This document shows positions 7,844 to 20,200 of a stretch of DNA of 20,212 nucleotides, piece after piece. The stretch covers positions 1 to 20,212 of the IMG/VR virus record IMGVR_UViG_3300044994_000022; one strand, written 5' to 3'. The stretch comes from a virus. The notes beneath the pieces were generated by a model. The model had not been told where the DNA came from. It saw only the letters and a program-made list of their open reading frames with translations, and searched no databases. Position 1 is the first letter of the stretch; the number at the start of each line of letters is the position of its first letter. The translations under genes were made by a program, and so were the position numbers.

Positions 7844-9561
7844 CAGCCCGCCCCCCGCAATTCGTCGATCGTGCCCGCCACCTGCACCGACACGACAGGG
7901 ACATTTGCCAGAATCTCGACCTGCCATTCCTCGGCCATGCGCCCGGCCGGAAGCCGCGCGATCCGGTTCGCCCTGGTGATGCTGGCGATCTGCGCATCAT
8001 TGGCGAACACGCGAACCTCGAACTCGTCCTCGCTCAGCAGGGGGCGCTCTGTCCGCGCAAACAGCGCCCCGAAGCTGATGGGCGACACGCTCGAGAACAG
8101 CTTCGACCGCCAGCGGAAGCGCGCGTTGGGCCGGGCGGGGTCCGACCACAGGAAGATGCTGCGGTTGTCGTCGCCCAGGAAATACAGGTTGTTGGTGGTT
8201 TCGTCGCGCCACATGGCGGCGGGCGTGGCCAGGTTGATGCGCGTGAAATCGGGCGGGTCCGCCGTCAGGTCGATCGACGCGAACTGCCTGCCGCCGAAGG
8301 TCGAAAAGGCATTGCCGCCATGCAGCGGCGCCATGTCGCCGGACCAGCCGCCCGCATTGCCGCCGTAGATCGTATCCACGGCAGGCGGGGTATCCCAGCC
8401 ATCCGCGTTCCCGCCATAGATCACGTCCCGCGCGCCTTCCTCGTAGCAGAACAGGTACCGGCCCTTGTGCCGCTCCGCAATGAAGGTGTCGGGCTCCATC
8501 GCCTGCCACTGGCCGGTGGTGAATACACCCTGCGTCAGAATGCGCGTCTCGGTCTGGCTGATGAGCGCCAGACCTTCCGGTGCCGGATAGACCGCCGCGT
8601 AGCCGACATCCACGATGCCGCGGCGCGACAGGCAGGGGACGCCGGTTTCCATCTTCACCATTGCCATGGTGTCAGGGCTCAGTCCCTGCGCGATGTATGG
8701 CGATCCCGTTGTCAGGATGGCAAGGTTGTCGCCGAAGCACGCCAGCCCGACCACATCCCAGTCCACCGTCAGCATGTATTTTCGCGGCCATGCGTGCGGC
8801 TGCCAGGGCTCGCAGAAGTAGACCGCCTTCCCGGCAAAAGCCGCCATCATGCCGTTGGGCATGGCTGTCAGTCCTGAAAGACCGGCCGCCGGCGTGTCGT
8901 AGTCTTGCGTCTGGAGCGGTTCCTTCAGGGGGTTGGCGGCAATGTTGTAGGTCGTGGAGGTGGTCGCAATGGGGATTTGCTTGGCGAAGTAGAAGCCTGT
9001 CACCCCTGCCGCCGATGTCTGGCTGCGGTAGATGCGGCGATGGGTGATCGCGCGCCCGCCGGGGACCGTCTCGAAACCGGCGATCTGGTTCACGACGCCC
9101 GGCGACCAGTCCAGCGCCTCGGAGGGCGGCGACGGCGCCGATTCCTCGCCCAGCGACGTGACATAGGTGTAGACGTAGAGGATCGTCTCCAGATTGTCGG
9201 GGTCCGGGCTTGTCAGGTTCGTGACCGTGGGGGGCGTTTCCGGTGCGGGCAGGGCAAGGTTGTAGACGATGCCGTTGTCGCGCACCTTGGGTGCCCCGTC
9301 CCCGGTGTAGTAGATGCGATTGGCGGCAATGGGCGCCCGCGCCACGCTCACATGCCCCGCCCATCCGAGCCACGTCTCGCCGAACCGGTAGAACGTGCTG
9401 GCATTGGCGTTGAGCGTCTCGACCAGTCCGGCCTTGCGGACAGGCGCCAGCGTCGTGCGCTCGAACTCGCAGTTGATCGCCATTGCCGCATGGGTTTCGG
9501 GCAGGTTGCGAGCTGTAACCCGTGGGATGCTGCCGCGGAAGTTGGCGAGATCGATCCGCAT
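7843..9561 (-). CDS. Probable tail nozzle / packaged-DNA stabilisation-type propeller protein (572 aa)
   Basis: The N-terminus (MRIDLANFRGSIPRVTARNL, then AINCEFERTTLAPVRK) is typical of a widespread phage tail-tip protein that starts by listing 'nFrG..Pr' and 'A.NC....G.L.P'. The central part alternates beta strands (YVYTYVTSLGEES at about 129-141; later YFCEPWQPHAWP; EGLALISQTETRILTQGVF), as in beta-propeller nozzle proteins of the T7 gp12 or P22 gp10 kind. Such proteins close the portal channel and form the short tail's exit. It directly follows the two neck genes, which supports the role. The ATG at 9561 lies four bases after the TAA of the upstream gene, within a small stem. The exact family is uncertain; the structural role is likely. 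Confidence 0.55.
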   Translation of the reverse strand: MRIDLANFRGSIPRVTARNLPETHAAMAINCEFERTTLAPVRKAGLVETLNANASTFYRFGETWLGWAGHVSVARAPIAANRIYYTGDGAPKVRDNGIVYNLALPAPETPPTVTNLTSPDPDNLETILYVYTYVTSLGEESAPSPPSEALDWSPGVVNQIAGFETVPGGRAITHRRIYRSQTSAAGVTGFYFAKQIPIATTSTTYNIAANPLKEPLQTQDYDTPAAGLSGLTAMPNGMMAAFAGKAVYFCEPWQPHAWPRKYMLTVDWDVVGLACFGDNLAILTTGSPYIAQGLSPDTMAMVKMETGVPCLSRRGIVDVGYAAVYPAPEGLALISQTETRILTQGVFTTGQWQAMEPDTFIAERHKGRYLFCYEEGARDVIYGGNADGWDTPPAVDTIYGGNAGGWSGDMAPLHGGNAFSTFGGRQFASIDLTADPPDFTRINLATPAAMWRDETTNNLYFLGDDNRSIFLWSDPARPNARFRWRSKLFSSVSPISFGALFARTERPLLSEDEFEVRVFANDAQIASITRANRIARLPAGRMAEEWQVEILANVPVVSVQVAGTIDELRGAG

Positions 9562-13196: not shown

Positions 13197-13388
13197 TCAC
13201 ATCTGGCCCGGCTTCGCAACCGGGACGCGGCGCGGCTCGATCTCGTAGGCCAGCATCACGCTGGACGGCGCGTTGATGTTCAGGACATAGTCGCCATCGG
13301 CGTTCCGCCACAGGTGCACGCTGATGTCGTTGCCGATATAGGCGACCGCTTCCTCGCATCGGCGCAGGTTCAACTTGCGGGACCACAT
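13197..13388 (-). CDS. Small unknown protein between scaffold and capsid genes (63 aa)
   Basis: The ATG at 13388 lies seven bases after the scaffold stop and gives 63 residues. An in-frame TTG at 13415 would add nine residues and overlap the scaffold gene by 20 bases. Neither has a convincing Shine-Dalgarno, so translation is probably coupled to the scaffold gene. The protein has a basic start (MWSRKLNLRRCEEAVAYIGN) and a beta-rich remainder (ISVHLWRNADGDYVLNINAP). No family is recognised. Its place in the head-assembly cluster suggests a minor head function, without direct evidence. Confidence 0.55.
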   Translation of the reverse strand: MWSRKLNLRRCEEAVAYIGNDISVHLWRNADGDYVLNINAPSSVMLAYEIEPRRVPVAKPGQM

Positions 13389-13395
13389 CGGGAGA

Positions 13396-14265
13396 TCAGG
13401 AAAAGTAGGCTTCAAGCTGCGATGGGGTCAGCTTGGCGATCATCGCCTCCCGCCTGATCGGGTCTTCCGTGGCGTCGATCGCCGCGAAAAGCCCGGCGTT
13501 CAGGTCGCTGGTCGTCTCGCCGTTGACGCCCGCAAGGGTCTGGATCGGCGGCTCGCGCGGATCGGTGCGCAGTTGCGGCTTGCCGGGATCGGCGGGGGCA
13601 GCCGCACCGATCACCTTGCCGGTGCGCGCGGTGTAGTTCAGGCGGTAGGAATCCGCCGCCCGGTCCAGCATTTGCTGCATCGTCAGGTGCGACAGCCCCG
13701 GATCGCCGGTCACGGCGCGCACGGCCTGATCGAACCCGGCAAGGTGCTCATCGGAGAAAAGCGCCGGGTGCTGCGCCCTGTATGTCTCGCACGCCGCTTC
13801 CCATTGCCGGACAATGGCCTGACGCTGGGCCGCCATCTGGCTTTCCTGTGCCTTTTGCAGGGCGGCAGCGGCTTCCAGCGCGGCCTTGGCCTCGGCGTGC
13901 TCGCGCGCAATCCGGGTCAGCTGCTCCTGCATCTCGGCGCGGGTAATCTCGCCGTCGTCGTAGCGGGTGGTGATCTCATCCATCTCGGCGTCGAAGCGGG
14001 CGAGCTTCTCGGCGGCGCCTGCGGTGTCGGGAATCTCGATCTGCACCGGCTGTGGCGCAGCCGCGGGCGCCTGCGGTTCCGGTTCGTGTCCAGGCTGCGC
14101 GGGTGTCTCCGGCTCTGCGGCGTTCAGCATTTCCGGAAATGCCGGGTCGTCGCCTTCATTGAGGGCGTCGATTTCCTGCTGGCTGAATCCGGCGGCTTGC
14201 AGGTTTTCCAGCGTGAAATCCTCGGGCAGGTGATCGAACGGCGTGGTTCTCAGCTTGTTGGACAT
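13396..14265 (-). CDS. Probable scaffolding protein (289 aa)
   Basis: The protein is acidic and helical, without hydrophobic core motifs. Residues 1-45 carry LPEDFTLENLQAAGFSQQEI and an acidic stretch. Residues 45-80 are a Pro/Glu/Ala linker. Residues about 84-155 form a long charged coiled coil (FDAEMDEITTRYDDGEITRA onward, then EAKAALEAAAALQKAQESQM). The C-terminus is helical and ends EAMIAKLTPSQLEAYFS. This composition, and the position between portal and major capsid genes, are characteristic of phage scaffolding proteins. These direct shell assembly and leave the head before packaging. The ATG at 14265 has a GGGAG site. Sequence alone cannot confirm a family, since scaffolds diverge quickly. 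Confidence 0.75.
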   Translation of the reverse strand: MSNKLRTTPFDHLPEDFTLENLQAAGFSQQEIDALNEGDDPAFPEMLNAAEPETPAQPGHEPEPQAPAAAPQPVQIEIPDTAGAAEKLARFDAEMDEITTRYDDGEITRAEMQEQLTRIAREHAEAKAALEAAAALQKAQESQMAAQRQAIVRQWEAACETYRAQHPALFSDEHLAGFDQAVRAVTGDPGLSHLTMQQMLDRAADSYRLNYTARTGKVIGAAAPADPGKPQLRTDPREPPIQTLAGVNGETTSDLNAGLFAAIDATEDPIRREAMIAKLTPSQLEAYFS

Positions 14266-16534: not shown

Positions 16535-16997
16535 CGGCCTTGTAATCCTCCTCGTGCAGCACCCGGCCTGTGTCCGGGTCGAGAATCGAGACGGTGGCGA
16601 GGGATTTCAGGCCGCCTGCCGGGCGTGGCGGCATCAGCAGCAGGTCGCGCAGGCGGGAGTCGATCGCGTTGAGGATGCGCAGCCGGTCGCGGCGATTGCC
16701 GGGCTCGCCGGGCAGCAGGCCGGCCGCCATCCATTCGTCGGCGGATCGGGCGCAGTGGATCGGGTCGCCGACGCCGTCGTGCAGCGCCCAGCGCCACGCC
16801 TCGCGGAGCGGGACGACGACCGGAATCACGCGGCCGCGGCGCACCGGCCGGGAGGCGTCCAGCAGCACCAGACACGGCTCGTGGTCGCGCGTCTGCACGT
16901 CGTAATACCACGTGCCGATCACGCGGATACCGGCGTGCGTGTGCGAGAACCGGACCTTGGCCAGATCGACGATTGGGATGAGAGGATCGGCGGTCAT
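16527..16997 (-). CDS. Unknown protein between large terminase and portal (156 aa)
   Basis: The ATG at 16997 overlaps the terminase stop (ATGA), and the stop lies inside the portal start, so the gene is tightly packed into the packaging operon. The sequence shows a beta-rich first half (VIGTWYYDVQTRDHEPCLVL, about 26-45; then RVIPVVVPLREAWRWALHD). A helical second half follows (RDRLRILNAIDSRLRDLLLM), and then a short beta-like end (LATVSILDPDTGRVLHEED). I recognise no family and no catalytic motif. Coupled translation with TerL and portal suggests an accessory role in packaging or portal assembly, but this is only positional. Confidence 0.7.
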   Translation of the reverse strand: MTADPLIPIVDLAKVRFSHTHAGIRVIGTWYYDVQTRDHEPCLVLLDASRPVRRGRVIPVVVPLREAWRWALHDGVGDPIHCARSADEWMAAGLLPGEPGNRRDRLRILNAIDSRLRDLLLMPPRPAGGLKSLATVSILDPDTGRVLHEEDYKADV

Positions 16998-18643
16998 GCG
17001 GTCATCCCCGTCGCGCGGCGGACGGGACGCGTGCGGTGCGCCGCCCGGCCGGCCGCATCGTGGCCGGGCACGTAGCCCTGCGCTTTCTGGCGCAGCGCGT
17101 CGGCCGCGTGGCTGTGCTCGTCGTGGCGCGGGTAGTCCGCCCAGCACTGGAGGCGGGTATTCCACTCGCGGGAGTACGCCTCCAGGTGCAAGAGGCCTTC
17201 CTTGCAGCCTTCCTCGTCGAAACAGTAGGTGGCGAAATCGGTCCTGAGCAGGTCGATTCCGTGCTGCACCGACGACACGCGGGGCACAACGCGCCAGTCC
17301 CACGACGGGCGCATTTCGCGCAGCATCGACAGCGGCGACGTGGTGGCCTCCACGCCCTGCCGGGTCTGGCTGGCGTCGTGAGGCAGGAAATGCGACCCCC
17401 ACAGATAGCCGTGCGCTTCCATCCATTGGACGAAATGGAGATAACCTGCGCCCGATTGCTCGTGGTAGTGTATCCACCGGTCCATCGGTCCGACGCGCTG
17501 GTGCAGCCAGATTGCCGTATCGTCGGACGCGCCCAGGTCCCAGAAGCTGTTGACGGGAACGTGCCTGAGCACGGGAAATCTGCCGATCCGCTGCTCGCGG
17601 CGCGCGATTGCCAGCGGAACCGCCAGATACTTTCCTTCCGTGGACGCTTGCCAGCACTCGTCGGGTGTGGCCGGGTATTCGCGCCACAGCAGGTCGGGAG
17701 TCGCGGCGAATTCGGTGTCGCGTTTGGCGATATACCACGCGCGCTGCGGCAGGTCGATCGTCGTGTTCATGGTGCCTTCCACGGTGTCGAAATACTCGTG
17801 CTCGGCGGCGCTGATTCTGGTGCGTCTGGCGTGCTCGACCGGCAGCCGATAGCCGGGGTCGATCCACCACGGGAAAAAGTGAAAGCGGTATTCGGCCGGG
17901 GACAGGGGCTGGGTCGCTTCGGTGGCGGCGCGACGCCGGGCGCGCTGGCAGAGCTCGTAGAACGCGCCGCCCTGACCCTCGGCCGTGGACTCGACAAACA
18001 CGAATCCGGACAGCGGGACGCCCTGGAGCGATCCGGTGGTGATCTCGACTGCCTTGTTCGGGGCTGTGGCCGCGATTTTGCCGAATTCGGAGATGTGCAG
18101 GAAGTGGGGCGTTCCCCCGCGGGCGCTGGTAGTCACCTCGATCGACGATCCGTTGGCGAATACGATCTGGCTCGCCGACCGTTTCAGCGCCGGGATCGCG
18201 TCCCGCACCTCGGGCCGGAGCCGGTCGTAGGCGAAAAGGACTTTCTTGCGGAACAGTCGGAACGCGGCGGCCTCGGTCTGCGCGATTATGACGACCTCCT
18301 GATTCGGGACGAACAGTGCGTGATCCAGCGCGAGAATTTCGATCAGGGTCGAAAATCCGAGTTGGCGCGCTTTCAGGATCACATTTCGCGTGTGCAGGTT
18401 TTCGAGCAGCAGCGCCTGCGCGGCGTTGGGGCGGAACGGCTGCGCGGCGTCGGGCTGCGCGTCGCTGTCGCTGTCGCCTTTGGTCGTGATCCAGTAGAGC
18501 TGCCCGCTGCCGATCCGCCAGTCCCACGAGGCGAGGCAGGCGCGCAATTCGGCCTCGGTGCCGGGCACGGTCTGCGGCGTGACGGGCGGCTGCGCGGCAG
18601 GCGCGGGGGCGGCGAATCCGGGCTGGTGGCGCTGCATCGTCAT
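16994..18643 (-). CDS. terL: Terminase large subunit (549 aa)
   Basis: The protein has the two-domain layout of phage packaging motors. In the ATPase part, KARQLGFST at 91-99 is the Walker A-like motif, LHISEFGK at 182-189 holds the Walker B strand with catalytic E186, and VFVESTAEG at 215-223 is the coupling motif. The usual Walker B Asp is Ser here, as in a subgroup with the HISEFGK signature. In the RuvC-like nuclease part, D369 (SFWDLGASDD), D423 (FLPHDAS) and D515 (HSHAADALR) are likely metal ligands. The enzyme translocates DNA into the procapsid and cuts the concatemer. The ATG at 18643 overlaps the small-subunit stop (ATGA), so the pair is co-translated. Confidence 0.92.
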   Translation of the reverse strand: MTMQRHQPGFAAPAPAAQPPVTPQTVPGTEAELRACLASWDWRIGSGQLYWITTKGDSDSDAQPDAAQPFRPNAAQALLLENLHTRNVILKARQLGFSTLIEILALDHALFVPNQEVVIIAQTEAAAFRLFRKKVLFAYDRLRPEVRDAIPALKRSASQIVFANGSSIEVTTSARGGTPHFLHISEFGKIAATAPNKAVEITTGSLQGVPLSGFVFVESTAEGQGGAFYELCQRARRRAATEATQPLSPAEYRFHFFPWWIDPGYRLPVEHARRTRISAAEHEYFDTVEGTMNTTIDLPQRAWYIAKRDTEFAATPDLLWREYPATPDECWQASTEGKYLAVPLAIARREQRIGRFPVLRHVPVNSFWDLGASDDTAIWLHQRVGPMDRWIHYHEQSGAGYLHFVQWMEAHGYLWGSHFLPHDASQTRQGVEATTSPLSMLREMRPSWDWRVVPRVSSVQHGIDLLRTDFATYCFDEEGCKEGLLHLEAYSREWNTRLQCWADYPRHDEHSHAADALRQKAQGYVPGHDAAGRAAHRTRPVRRATGMTA

Positions 18644-19341
18644 GCGGTGTCGTCCGCGCCGTCGTGTGCGGCCGGGTCGTGGCGCAGGCGCATGGAGCCC
18701 ATCTGGCCGGCGGCCTGGAGTTCGGCGATCAGGCGGGCGACCGCGTTGCCCTGACGCTCGTCGCGTTCACGGAATACGCCGGTGTGCTCGGCGAGTTCGT
18801 GCAGCGCGCGCAGTTTGTCGTGCAGTCGTATCCGTGTCCTGCGGACAGTCGGGACTGTGGCGCCGGTGCTGTCGGCCGACTGGCCGTCGACGACGGTCTC
18901 GGTGATCACCTCGGCGAGAGCGTCGAGAGCGTCGGGGCCTGCGGCGCTGAGGTCGATCTGCGGCTGGCCGTCGCGGTCGATACGGACGAAGGACCGCATC
19001 GAGGCGAACGCGATCTTTGCGATTTCCTCGACGACGCGATCGGCGGTGACGCCTGTGCGCGCGGCGCGGAGTTGCTGGGCGCGCTGGATTGCGGCGTACA
19101 CGTGCGGCTTGGTTTTACCATTGCTGACCCAGGTGTACGCTTTGCTGGCCGCCATCGTGCGGCTGTAACCTGCGGCGAGCGCGGCGCGGCGTGGGTTGAG
19201 GTCGATCAGGAACTCGTCGACGAATCGCCGCTCGCGGTGGTCGAGTGGTTTGGCGGCAGGGTTGTGGTGCGGCGTGCGTGCTGGCGCGCGGCCGGTTGCG
19301 GCGTTTGCTGCGGATTTGGTCAGGGGACGGGTTTTTGGCAC
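18640..19341 (-). CDS. terS: Terminase small subunit, Terminase_2 type (233 aa)
   Basis: I place the start at GTG 19341, which has a GGGAG site eight bases upstream. The frame stays open to 19710, but that part is low-complexity and antisense to a plus-strand gene. A basic tail leads into LDHRERRFVDEFLIDLNPRR, then AALAAGYSR (about 33-61). This is the N-terminal DNA-binding helix-turn-helix of the family, and TGVTADRVVEEIAKIAFASM follows as in XtmA-like proteins. The C-terminus (LHDKLRALHELAEHTGVFRE) is a typical TerS helix. The protein recognises the packaging site and recruits TerL. It is the first gene of the leftward late transcript. Confidence 0.85.
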   Translation of the reverse strand: MPKTRPLTKSAANAATGRAPARTPHHNPAAKPLDHRERRFVDEFLIDLNPRRAALAAGYSRTMAASKAYTWVSNGKTKPHVYAAIQRAQQLRAARTGVTADRVVEEIAKIAFASMRSFVRIDRDGQPQIDLSAAGPDALDALAEVITETVVDGQSADSTGATVPTVRRTRIRLHDKLRALHELAEHTGVFRERDERQGNAVARLIAELQAAGQMGSMRLRHDPAAHDGADDTA

Positions 19342-19368: not shown

Positions 19369-19397
19369 ATTTTGCCGTATTGCGAGGCTGGAATCAA
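19369..19397 (-). promoter_or_regulatory. Weak candidate late promoter for the leftward operon
   Basis: On the minus strand TTGATT (19392-19397) and CAAAAT (19369-19374) are separated by 17 bases. Each matches 4 of 6 sigma70 consensus positions. The start would fall about 20 bases before the terminase small-subunit GTG. It is the best candidate I see, but the match is modest. Confidence 0.3.
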
Positions 19398-19464: not shown

Positions 19465-19496
19465 CACGGCGGCTGAATTGGCGCATGGCGCGCGTT

Positions 19497-19510
19497 CCGA
19501 TTGCAATCGG
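19497..19510. promoter_or_regulatory. 14-bp perfect palindrome over the -35 box (candidate operator)
   Basis: CCGATTGCAATCGG is a perfect 14-bp palindrome. It contains the -35 hexamer TTGCAA of the rightward promoter, so a dimeric regulator bound here would block or recruit RNA polymerase. Confidence 0.6.
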
Positions 19511-19529
19511 CAGCGCGCTGCGCTATATT
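19501..19529 (+). promoter_or_regulatory. Sigma70-like promoter for the rightward small genes
   Basis: TTGCAA (19501-19506) and TATATT (19524-19529) have a 17-base spacer. The -10 matches five of six consensus bases and the -35 four of six. Transcription would begin near 19536, leaving about 40 bases before the ATG at 19576. It is one of the few AT-containing spots in a very GC-rich gap, which adds weight. Confidence 0.65.
19510..19521. promoter_or_regulatory. 12-bp perfect palindrome in the promoter spacer (candidate operator)
   Basis: GCAGCGCGCTGC is a perfect palindrome that abuts the 14-bp one (they share the G at 19510). It fills most of the spacer between -35 and -10, a standard place for repressor operators. 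Confidence 0.55.
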
Positions 19530-19560
19530 GGAAACGTGGAAACGGGGCGAGGCCCCACAG

Positions 19561-19575
19561 AGAGGAGAGACGACG
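19561..19575 (+). promoter_or_regulatory. Ribosome-binding leader, copy 1
   Basis: AGAGGAGAGACGACG ends directly before the ATG at 19576 and contains a strong AGGAG Shine-Dalgarno. The same 15 bases recur before the next gene. Confidence 0.85.
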
Positions 19576-19851
19576 ATGGCGACCACGATCCGCAAGACCG
19601 ACACCAACGAGGTGACGCTGAACGCGGTGGACCCGCTGACCGGCGAGGCCGTGTCCCGGACCTACTGGGTTCCCCGCTGCGGCGGCTACGTCCGCGAGGG
19701 CGCGCTGCACCTGCCGACCGACCCGCAGGTGTGCGCCGGGCTGGGCCGCCGGGGCAACACGCTGACCGCGACGGACGGCGACGACCTGCTGCGCACGATC
19801 CGCCGCGAGTGGGCTGCGTACCGCCGCGCTGCCGCGCGCTGGGCGGCCTGA
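19576..19851 (+). CDS. Small phage protein of unknown function (91 aa)
   Basis: The ATG at 19576 has a strong AGGAG site and a promoter about 47 bases upstream. The protein opens with MATTIRKTDTNEVTLNAVDP, a beta-like segment, followed by RTYWVPRCGGYVREG (about 28-42). It ends in a basic helix (DDLLRTIRREWAAYRRAAAR). The compact fold, many Arg and absence of a membrane segment suggest a small cytoplasmic, perhaps nucleic-acid- or protein-binding, early phage protein. I do not recognise a family. It is transcribed away from the late operon together with the gene at 19916, so it probably belongs to an early or middle unit. Confidence 0.75.
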   Translation: MATTIRKTDTNEVTLNAVDPLTGEAVSRTYWVPRCGGYVREGALHLPTDPQVCAGLGRRGNTLTATDGDDLLRTIRREWAAYRRAAARWAA

Positions 19852-19858
19852 TCTTCAA

Positions 19859-19884
19859 GTGTCCGGCCCTGCCGGGCCGGACGC
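19859..19884 (+). promoter_or_regulatory. Intergenic hairpin between the two small rightward genes
   Basis: GTCCGGCCC (19861-19869) and GGGCCGGAC (19874-19882) form a perfect 9-bp stem with a TGCC loop, extendable by a T-G wobble and a G-C pair. No T-run follows, so it is not a standard intrinsic terminator. It may be an mRNA processing or stability element or an attenuator. Confidence 0.65.
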
Positions 19885-19901
19885 GCAAACCGACACACAC
19901 A

Positions 19902-19916
19902 AGAGGAGAGACGACG
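19902..19916 (+). promoter_or_regulatory. Ribosome-binding leader, copy 2
   Basis: The 15-base leader AGAGGAGAGACGACG is repeated exactly here. Its last G is the first base of the GTG start codon at 19916, which supports that start. Confidence 0.8.
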
Positions 19917-20200
19917 TGATCGGGAAAAAATGCATCATCCGCTGCTACGCCTCCGGCGTGCACTACGGGACGGTCACCGCGCACGAGGGGCGGCAGGTGA
20001 CGCTGGCGGACAGCCGCCGTCTGTGGCGCTGGCACACGGGCGGGCGGCACAACGGCGTCAGCCTGTCGGGCGTGGCGATCAACGGGATCGACGCGGCGAA
20101 GAGCATTGTCGAACCGGTGCTCCCGCTGATCGTGCTGCTGGACGCGCTGGAGATCATCCCGGCGAGCGAAAAGGCGCAGGCGACGATCGAGGGGGCGTGA
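19916..20200 (+). CDS. Small phage protein, DUF6948-like (94 aa)
   Basis: The GTG at 19916 is chosen because a strong AGGAG site precedes it; the frame is open further upstream but enters the hairpin. The sequence runs CIIRCYASGVHYGTVTAHEG, then VTLADSRRLWRWHTGG, then GVAINGIDAAK, then VLPLIVLLDALEIIPASEKA. This order (YsaGV.yG, then tLt.arRLWyW.G, then LsqLA..G, then i.l..aiEIlp.t..A) matches a small phage protein family that I believe is DUF6948, of unknown function. It follows the 91-residue gene on the same strand and is followed one base later by another ATG. Confidence 0.7.
   Translation: MIGKKCIIRCYASGVHYGTVTAHEGRQVTLADSRRLWRWHTGGRHNGVSLSGVAINGIDAAKSIVEPVLPLIVLLDALEIIPASEKAQATIEGA

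Follow-up and report, generated by a model that had tools for sequence, protein, structure and literature searches.

What acts on a phage promoter whose −35 element and spacer are both occupied by perfect palindromes? The question is raised by the 234-bp intergenic region that separates the gene for the terminase small subunit (TerS) from divergent small genes in a window that comprises an entire IMG/VR virus record (20,212 bases). Judged by its encoded proteins, the window is part of a podovirus with a P22-type portal, a Phage_capsid_3 capsid protein and a Bcep22-like terminase. DNA searches of phage records found no relatives of it, near or distant. The nearest terminases belong to Rhodobacteraceae prophages, those of Frigidibacter at 65–67% and those of Cereibacter and Cypionkella at 62–65%, and protein searches with the large subunit (TerL) found nothing above about 67% in viral contigs or in 84,980 species (one genome per species). 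All virion genes run leftward, with terS first, and two small genes run rightward, followed by the contig end. The features on which the analysis turns are these:

16994–18643, minus strand: terminase large subunit TerL, 65–67% to a Frigidibacter prophage
18640–19341, minus strand: terminase small subunit TerS, heading the divergent leftward operon (PF03592, E = 1.5e-21)
19369–19397, minus strand: weak leftward promoter candidate for TerS, TTGATT-17-CAAAAT (8/12)
19497–19510, no strand: perfect 14-bp palindrome CCGATTGCAATCGG, proposed operator site 1, centred on the −35 TTGCAA
19501–19529, plus strand: sigma70-type promoter TTGCAA-17-TATATT (9/12 match; start expected near 19536)
19510–19521, no strand: perfect 12-bp palindrome GCAGCGCGCTGC within the promoter spacer, either incidental or proposed operator site 2
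19576–19851, plus strand: 91-aa orphan without homologs, first rightward gene
19916–20200, plus strand: DUF6948 protein, 94 aa, second rightward gene (PF22253, E = 3.3e-23)

Two palindromes on one promoter

The original prediction described two perfect, abutting palindromes forming a 26-bp block. Both are exact, but they have G19510 in common, and the block is 25 bp long. As predicted, the 14-bp palindrome holds the −35 box, being centred on TTGCAA at 19501–19506, and the 12-bp palindrome fills most of the spacer, 12 of the 17 bases that precede TATATT. The −35 hexamer, which is itself palindromic, matches TTGACA at four of six positions and the −10 hexamer (19524–19529) matches TATAAT at five of six. 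Between 17000 and 20212 this is the only 9/12 sigma70-type match (0.1 expected in shuffles of these 3.2 kb), and a relaxed promoter scan of the whole window yielded no further match above 8/12. The search for further copies in the rest of the window found none: the block occurs once in 20 kb, CCGATTGCAATCGG has no second copy even with up to 2 mismatches allowed, and the GC-rich GCAGCGCGCTGC has six matches at up to 2 mismatches against 8.2 expected.

We read the 25-bp block as an operator for a dimeric phage repressor that would shut off the early rightward operon of small genes, and put the probability of this reading at about 60%. What is directly observed is the sequence itself, its match to a promoter, the divergent order of the genes and an architecture that returns in related prophages. 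A twofold-symmetric site overlaps the promoter core, from −35 towards −10, as in Cro- and Aca-type autorepressor operators. We infer that a small dimeric helix-turn-helix phage repressor, its gene presumably lying past the right end of the contig, occupies the 14-bp palindrome over the −35 element, with the 12-bp spacer palindrome possibly a second repressor site. Bound repressor would block RNA polymerase, so that the operon would be on at once upon infection and off afterwards. The sequence of the block is new; the kind of switch is well known, an ordinary phage control element. Most likely it is where a phage repressor binds, one comparable to the repressors that silence early or anti-CRISPR genes, and its mode of action would be that of operators in Cro/CI-type switches and in Aca-regulated anti-CRISPR operons.

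Published promoters with similar palindromes

Aca proteins provide the closest precedent: a dimeric Aca repressor occupies a palindrome that covers the −35 and the spacer and thereby keeps RNA polymerase off (PMC8434428, PMC9410906, PMC9410881). In acr–aca operons the core promoter invariably contains one inverted repeat (PMC9410906), as it does in the window. Aca-repressed promoters (Aca2 of phage ZF40, Aca10) share with the window inverted repeats over −35 and spacer and a phage operon of small genes, and the Aca2 site GTTCGCAATTGCGAAC resembles the block in size and core words. The closest published look-alike is the acrIC7–acrIC6–aca10 promoter of P. citronellolis, TTGCAA-N16-TATTCT, which has a 10-bp palindrome on the −35, enclosing TTGCAA as in the window, and a 21-bp one over core and spacer (PMC9410881). 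The window differs from Aca systems in that its sequence is another one, its 91-aa gene is an orphan and no known acr or aca gene was found in the rightward operon as far as the contig end, DUF6948 not being an Acr family. Moreover, when a published Aca promoter has two repeats, IR2 usually resembles IR1; the two palindromes of the window are dissimilar. Immunity operators of the CI/Cro type are also alike in combining a short perfect palindrome, an early promoter and a divergent region; in mycobacteriophage BPs the 12-bp palindrome CGACATATGTCG is half of OR (PMC4557955), and a related prophage described below offers a second case. In the window, unlike in those systems, the opposite gene is terS and not a repressor gene.

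The original prediction further suggested that one or two dimeric regulators read the block. An operator on the rightward promoter is still the best reading, given the same architecture in related prophages and in published acr–aca promoters, but two different regulators are not indicated: the window encodes no candidate regulator or helix-turn-helix gene, the rightward operon being cut off by the contig end, and the look-alike aca10 promoter is bound at one repeat, the larger (PMC9410881).

Chance occurrence of the palindromes

That such palindromes are unlikely by chance, as had been proposed, holds for their joint placement and not for either one, each being at chance frequency. Neither is remarkable alone, because observed counts match expectation: the window has 11 palindromes of at least 12 bp (12.7 expected) and 4 of at least 14 bp (3.9 expected). 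By contrast, nowhere else in the 20-kb window do two palindromes of 10 bp or more abut. For an abutting 14 + 12 pair, chance predicts 0.05 occurrences in a window and 1.5e-4 in an intergenic region of 234 bp. With the hexamers TTGCAA and TATATT fixed, the probability that the −35 carries a palindrome of 14 bp or more and the spacer one of 12 bp or more is 0.5–1.3e-4. All of these values are post hoc, to be discounted accordingly.

Against an operator count the palindromic nature of TTGCAA, which favours the first palindrome, and the fact that a lone 12- or 14-bp palindrome is expected by chance. The promoter could thus be real and the palindromes incidental, TTGCAA having extended to 14 bp by chance and a GCGC-rich spacer having yielded the 12-bp one. 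Besides the window counts, two observations favour this account, which we consider doubtful though it deserves weight. The aca10 repressor leaves the −35 TTGCAA palindrome unbound (PMC9410881), a caution that palindromes centred on TTGCAA may be incidental, and the 14-mer is elsewhere coding sequence: almost all of its 79 other copies in viral contigs lie inside reading frames. One copy (L162) has TATAAT at 17 bases, which is about chance level, and a relaxed form of the whole block gave five matches in viral contigs, none in promoter context. The joint chance of about 1e-4 given the hexamers, and the singularity of the abutting pair, speak against incidental palindromes.

Palindromic promoters in terminase-related prophages

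The palindrome-on-promoter architecture recurs, with other sequences, in the related prophages L051, L103 and L231. Less favourable to the operator reading is a survey of 172 related loci: it counted 11 perfect palindromes of 12 bp or longer on 9/12 promoters where about 5 were expected, and several of the 11 are AT-rich repeats. Promoters near TerS with an inverted-repeat score of at least 9 numbered 4 of 241, compared with 0 of 528 in simulated sequence; on this scale the block of the window scores 7, and it counts against an operator that 16 of the 528 simulated promoters (about 3%) reach this value.

In L051 (Sediminimonas), the promoter TTGACA-CCTGTTGCAACAGGTTG-CATACT (region TTGACACCTGTTGCAACAGGTTGCATACT) carries a perfect palindrome on its core and is flanked by an HTH_3 repressor gene (E = 9.6e-13) on one side and by a divergent early gene on the other; this locus is a classical immunity region, a switch between repressor and early gene. 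L103 (Pluralibacter) has TTGACA-TATGACGCGCGTCATAT-TATATT twice. Its first copy is about 20 bp upstream of the TerS gene and directed away from it, and its second comes after a 63-aa gene without Pfam match, overlapping the end of that gene. The two L103 promoters, TTGACATATGACGCGCGTCATATTATATT at 9350(−) and 7639(−), are identical. L231 also has two copies, of TTGACTGCGCAATCATTGCGCATTAATATT, symmetric except for the central base and directed away from terS; the first, divergent from TerS, has a helix-turn-helix gene before it and an AcrF8 anti-CRISPR gene after it. The palindromic promoter is repeated at L231:3240(−). The AcrF8 homolog and the helix-turn-helix gene (L231:4303–4545(−), PF25699, E = 6.5e-16, with L231:4684–4890(−)) adjoin each other in this Bcep22-like prophage record. 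L103 and L231 resemble the window in terminase group, in a promoter directed away from terS and in a palindrome-filled spacer; they differ from it in having palindromes of 17–18 bp, two copies per prophage and a consensus-like −35, as against one copy in the 20 kb of the window.

The nearest prophages (L039, L015, L040 and L042) have no comparable divergent region and promoter upstream of terS. Judged by visual inspection of sequence and ORF lists, their small genes upstream of terS are apparently co-directional with it; antisense ORFs led a crude automatic ORF call to disagree in the case of L039 and L015.

Leftward transcription, packaging and DNA structure

The absence of such a promoter in the nearest relatives speaks against another part of the original prediction, a possible switch by which one or two phage regulators at the block would choose either the small rightward genes or the late leftward operon. 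The arrangement is divergent with TerS, and a half-site-like GCAATACGG (19375–19383) lies inside the candidate leftward promoter; however, similar half-sites (CCG, 0–1 base, ATTGC) occur several more times in the window. That promoter (19397–19369), the sole leftward candidate, lies about 100 bp away and does not overlap the palindromes, too distant for the block to occlude it, and an early/late switch is therefore not indicated. We regard it as improbable.

Sites of the pac or cos kind lie mostly in or near terS, and the block, about 155 bp upstream of terS, might instead be a packaging element bound by TerS. The exact register with the only good promoter and the lack of further copies argue against this, and TerS rings typically do not read short perfect palindromes; the chance that the block serves packaging is in our view very small.

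Equally slim is the prospect that the sequence forms one large imperfect hairpin or cruciform (19481–19523), a structured DNA element in place of two dyads. As single-stranded DNA it folds with 16 pairs (z = −2.67), and only 2 of 200 shuffles were equally stable. Yet the arms are out of register through bulges, leaving the duplex without an extended dyad, and there is no support for an N4-like virion RNA polymerase, an enzyme that would read hairpins. An N4-type hairpin promoter was rejected on the match of the giant virion protein, which is not to an RNA polymerase domain. The N-terminal part of this protein is encoded at 3–1208(−); its weak match to phrog_2206, named virion RNA polymerase, covers the N-terminal part only, and its best-matching relative (Achromobacter phage CF418P1, 2,684 aa) contains LPD3, LPD38 and pyrophosphatase-like domains.

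The rightward genes

If the block is a repressor operator, it marks the site of an early accessory operon in this group of phages with a Bcep22-like terminase and rhodobacterial relatives, a site divergent from terS and under a palindromic promoter. The AcrF8 gene at the corresponding position of L231 suggests that palindromic promoters may serve as bait for unknown anti-defence genes, and the rightward operon of the window is a possible acr–aca operon; when the relatives' genes divergent from TerS were compared with Pfam, L231 alone yielded an Acr family. Searches with the 91-aa gene gave chance-level matches at most in viral contigs, phage records and 397 genomes of the family of Frigidibacter G001, and its product matched no Pfam or PHROG family. 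Its predicted structure (mean pLDDT 46) is a low-confidence fold and was left unused. We think it quite improbable that the block is a composite operator whose dissimilar palindromes, one on the −35 and the other in the spacer, serve two different dimeric regulators, heading a new terS-divergent anti-defence operon with the 91-aa orphan as a defence inhibitor.

The DUF6948 protein has 14 viral relatives with identities up to 90%, in varied gene contexts where palindromes and an evident regulator neighbour were both absent. In L025, L026, L032 and L036, the open frame that follows DUF6948 often consists of low-complexity repeats (for example, ATATAPAPAT... or GSGYGDGSGYG...). The L025–L034 group has a promoter, TTGACAAGCTGCACGGTCAACCTGTAACGT, about 60 bases upstream of DUF6948, the −35 of which is half of an inverted repeat, TTGAC-N10-GTCAA.

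Searches of the window for RNA families gave no match. An identical 15-nt leader, AGAGGAGAGACGACG, directly precedes both rightward start codons (19561–19575 and 19901–19915). Between the two small genes, at about 19860–19883, lies a strong hairpin without a T run, GTCCGGCCCTGCCGGGCCGGAC, with similar ones in L024, L033 and L039; it recalls intercistronic hairpins upstream of DUF6948 or of terS-proximal small genes in other phages. Elsewhere in the window, 13197–13415(−), just upstream of the capsid gene, gave a weak CsrA-like match below the cut-off (E = 0.074), and BcepIL02 carries a CsrA-like gene at the corresponding place upstream of its capsid gene.
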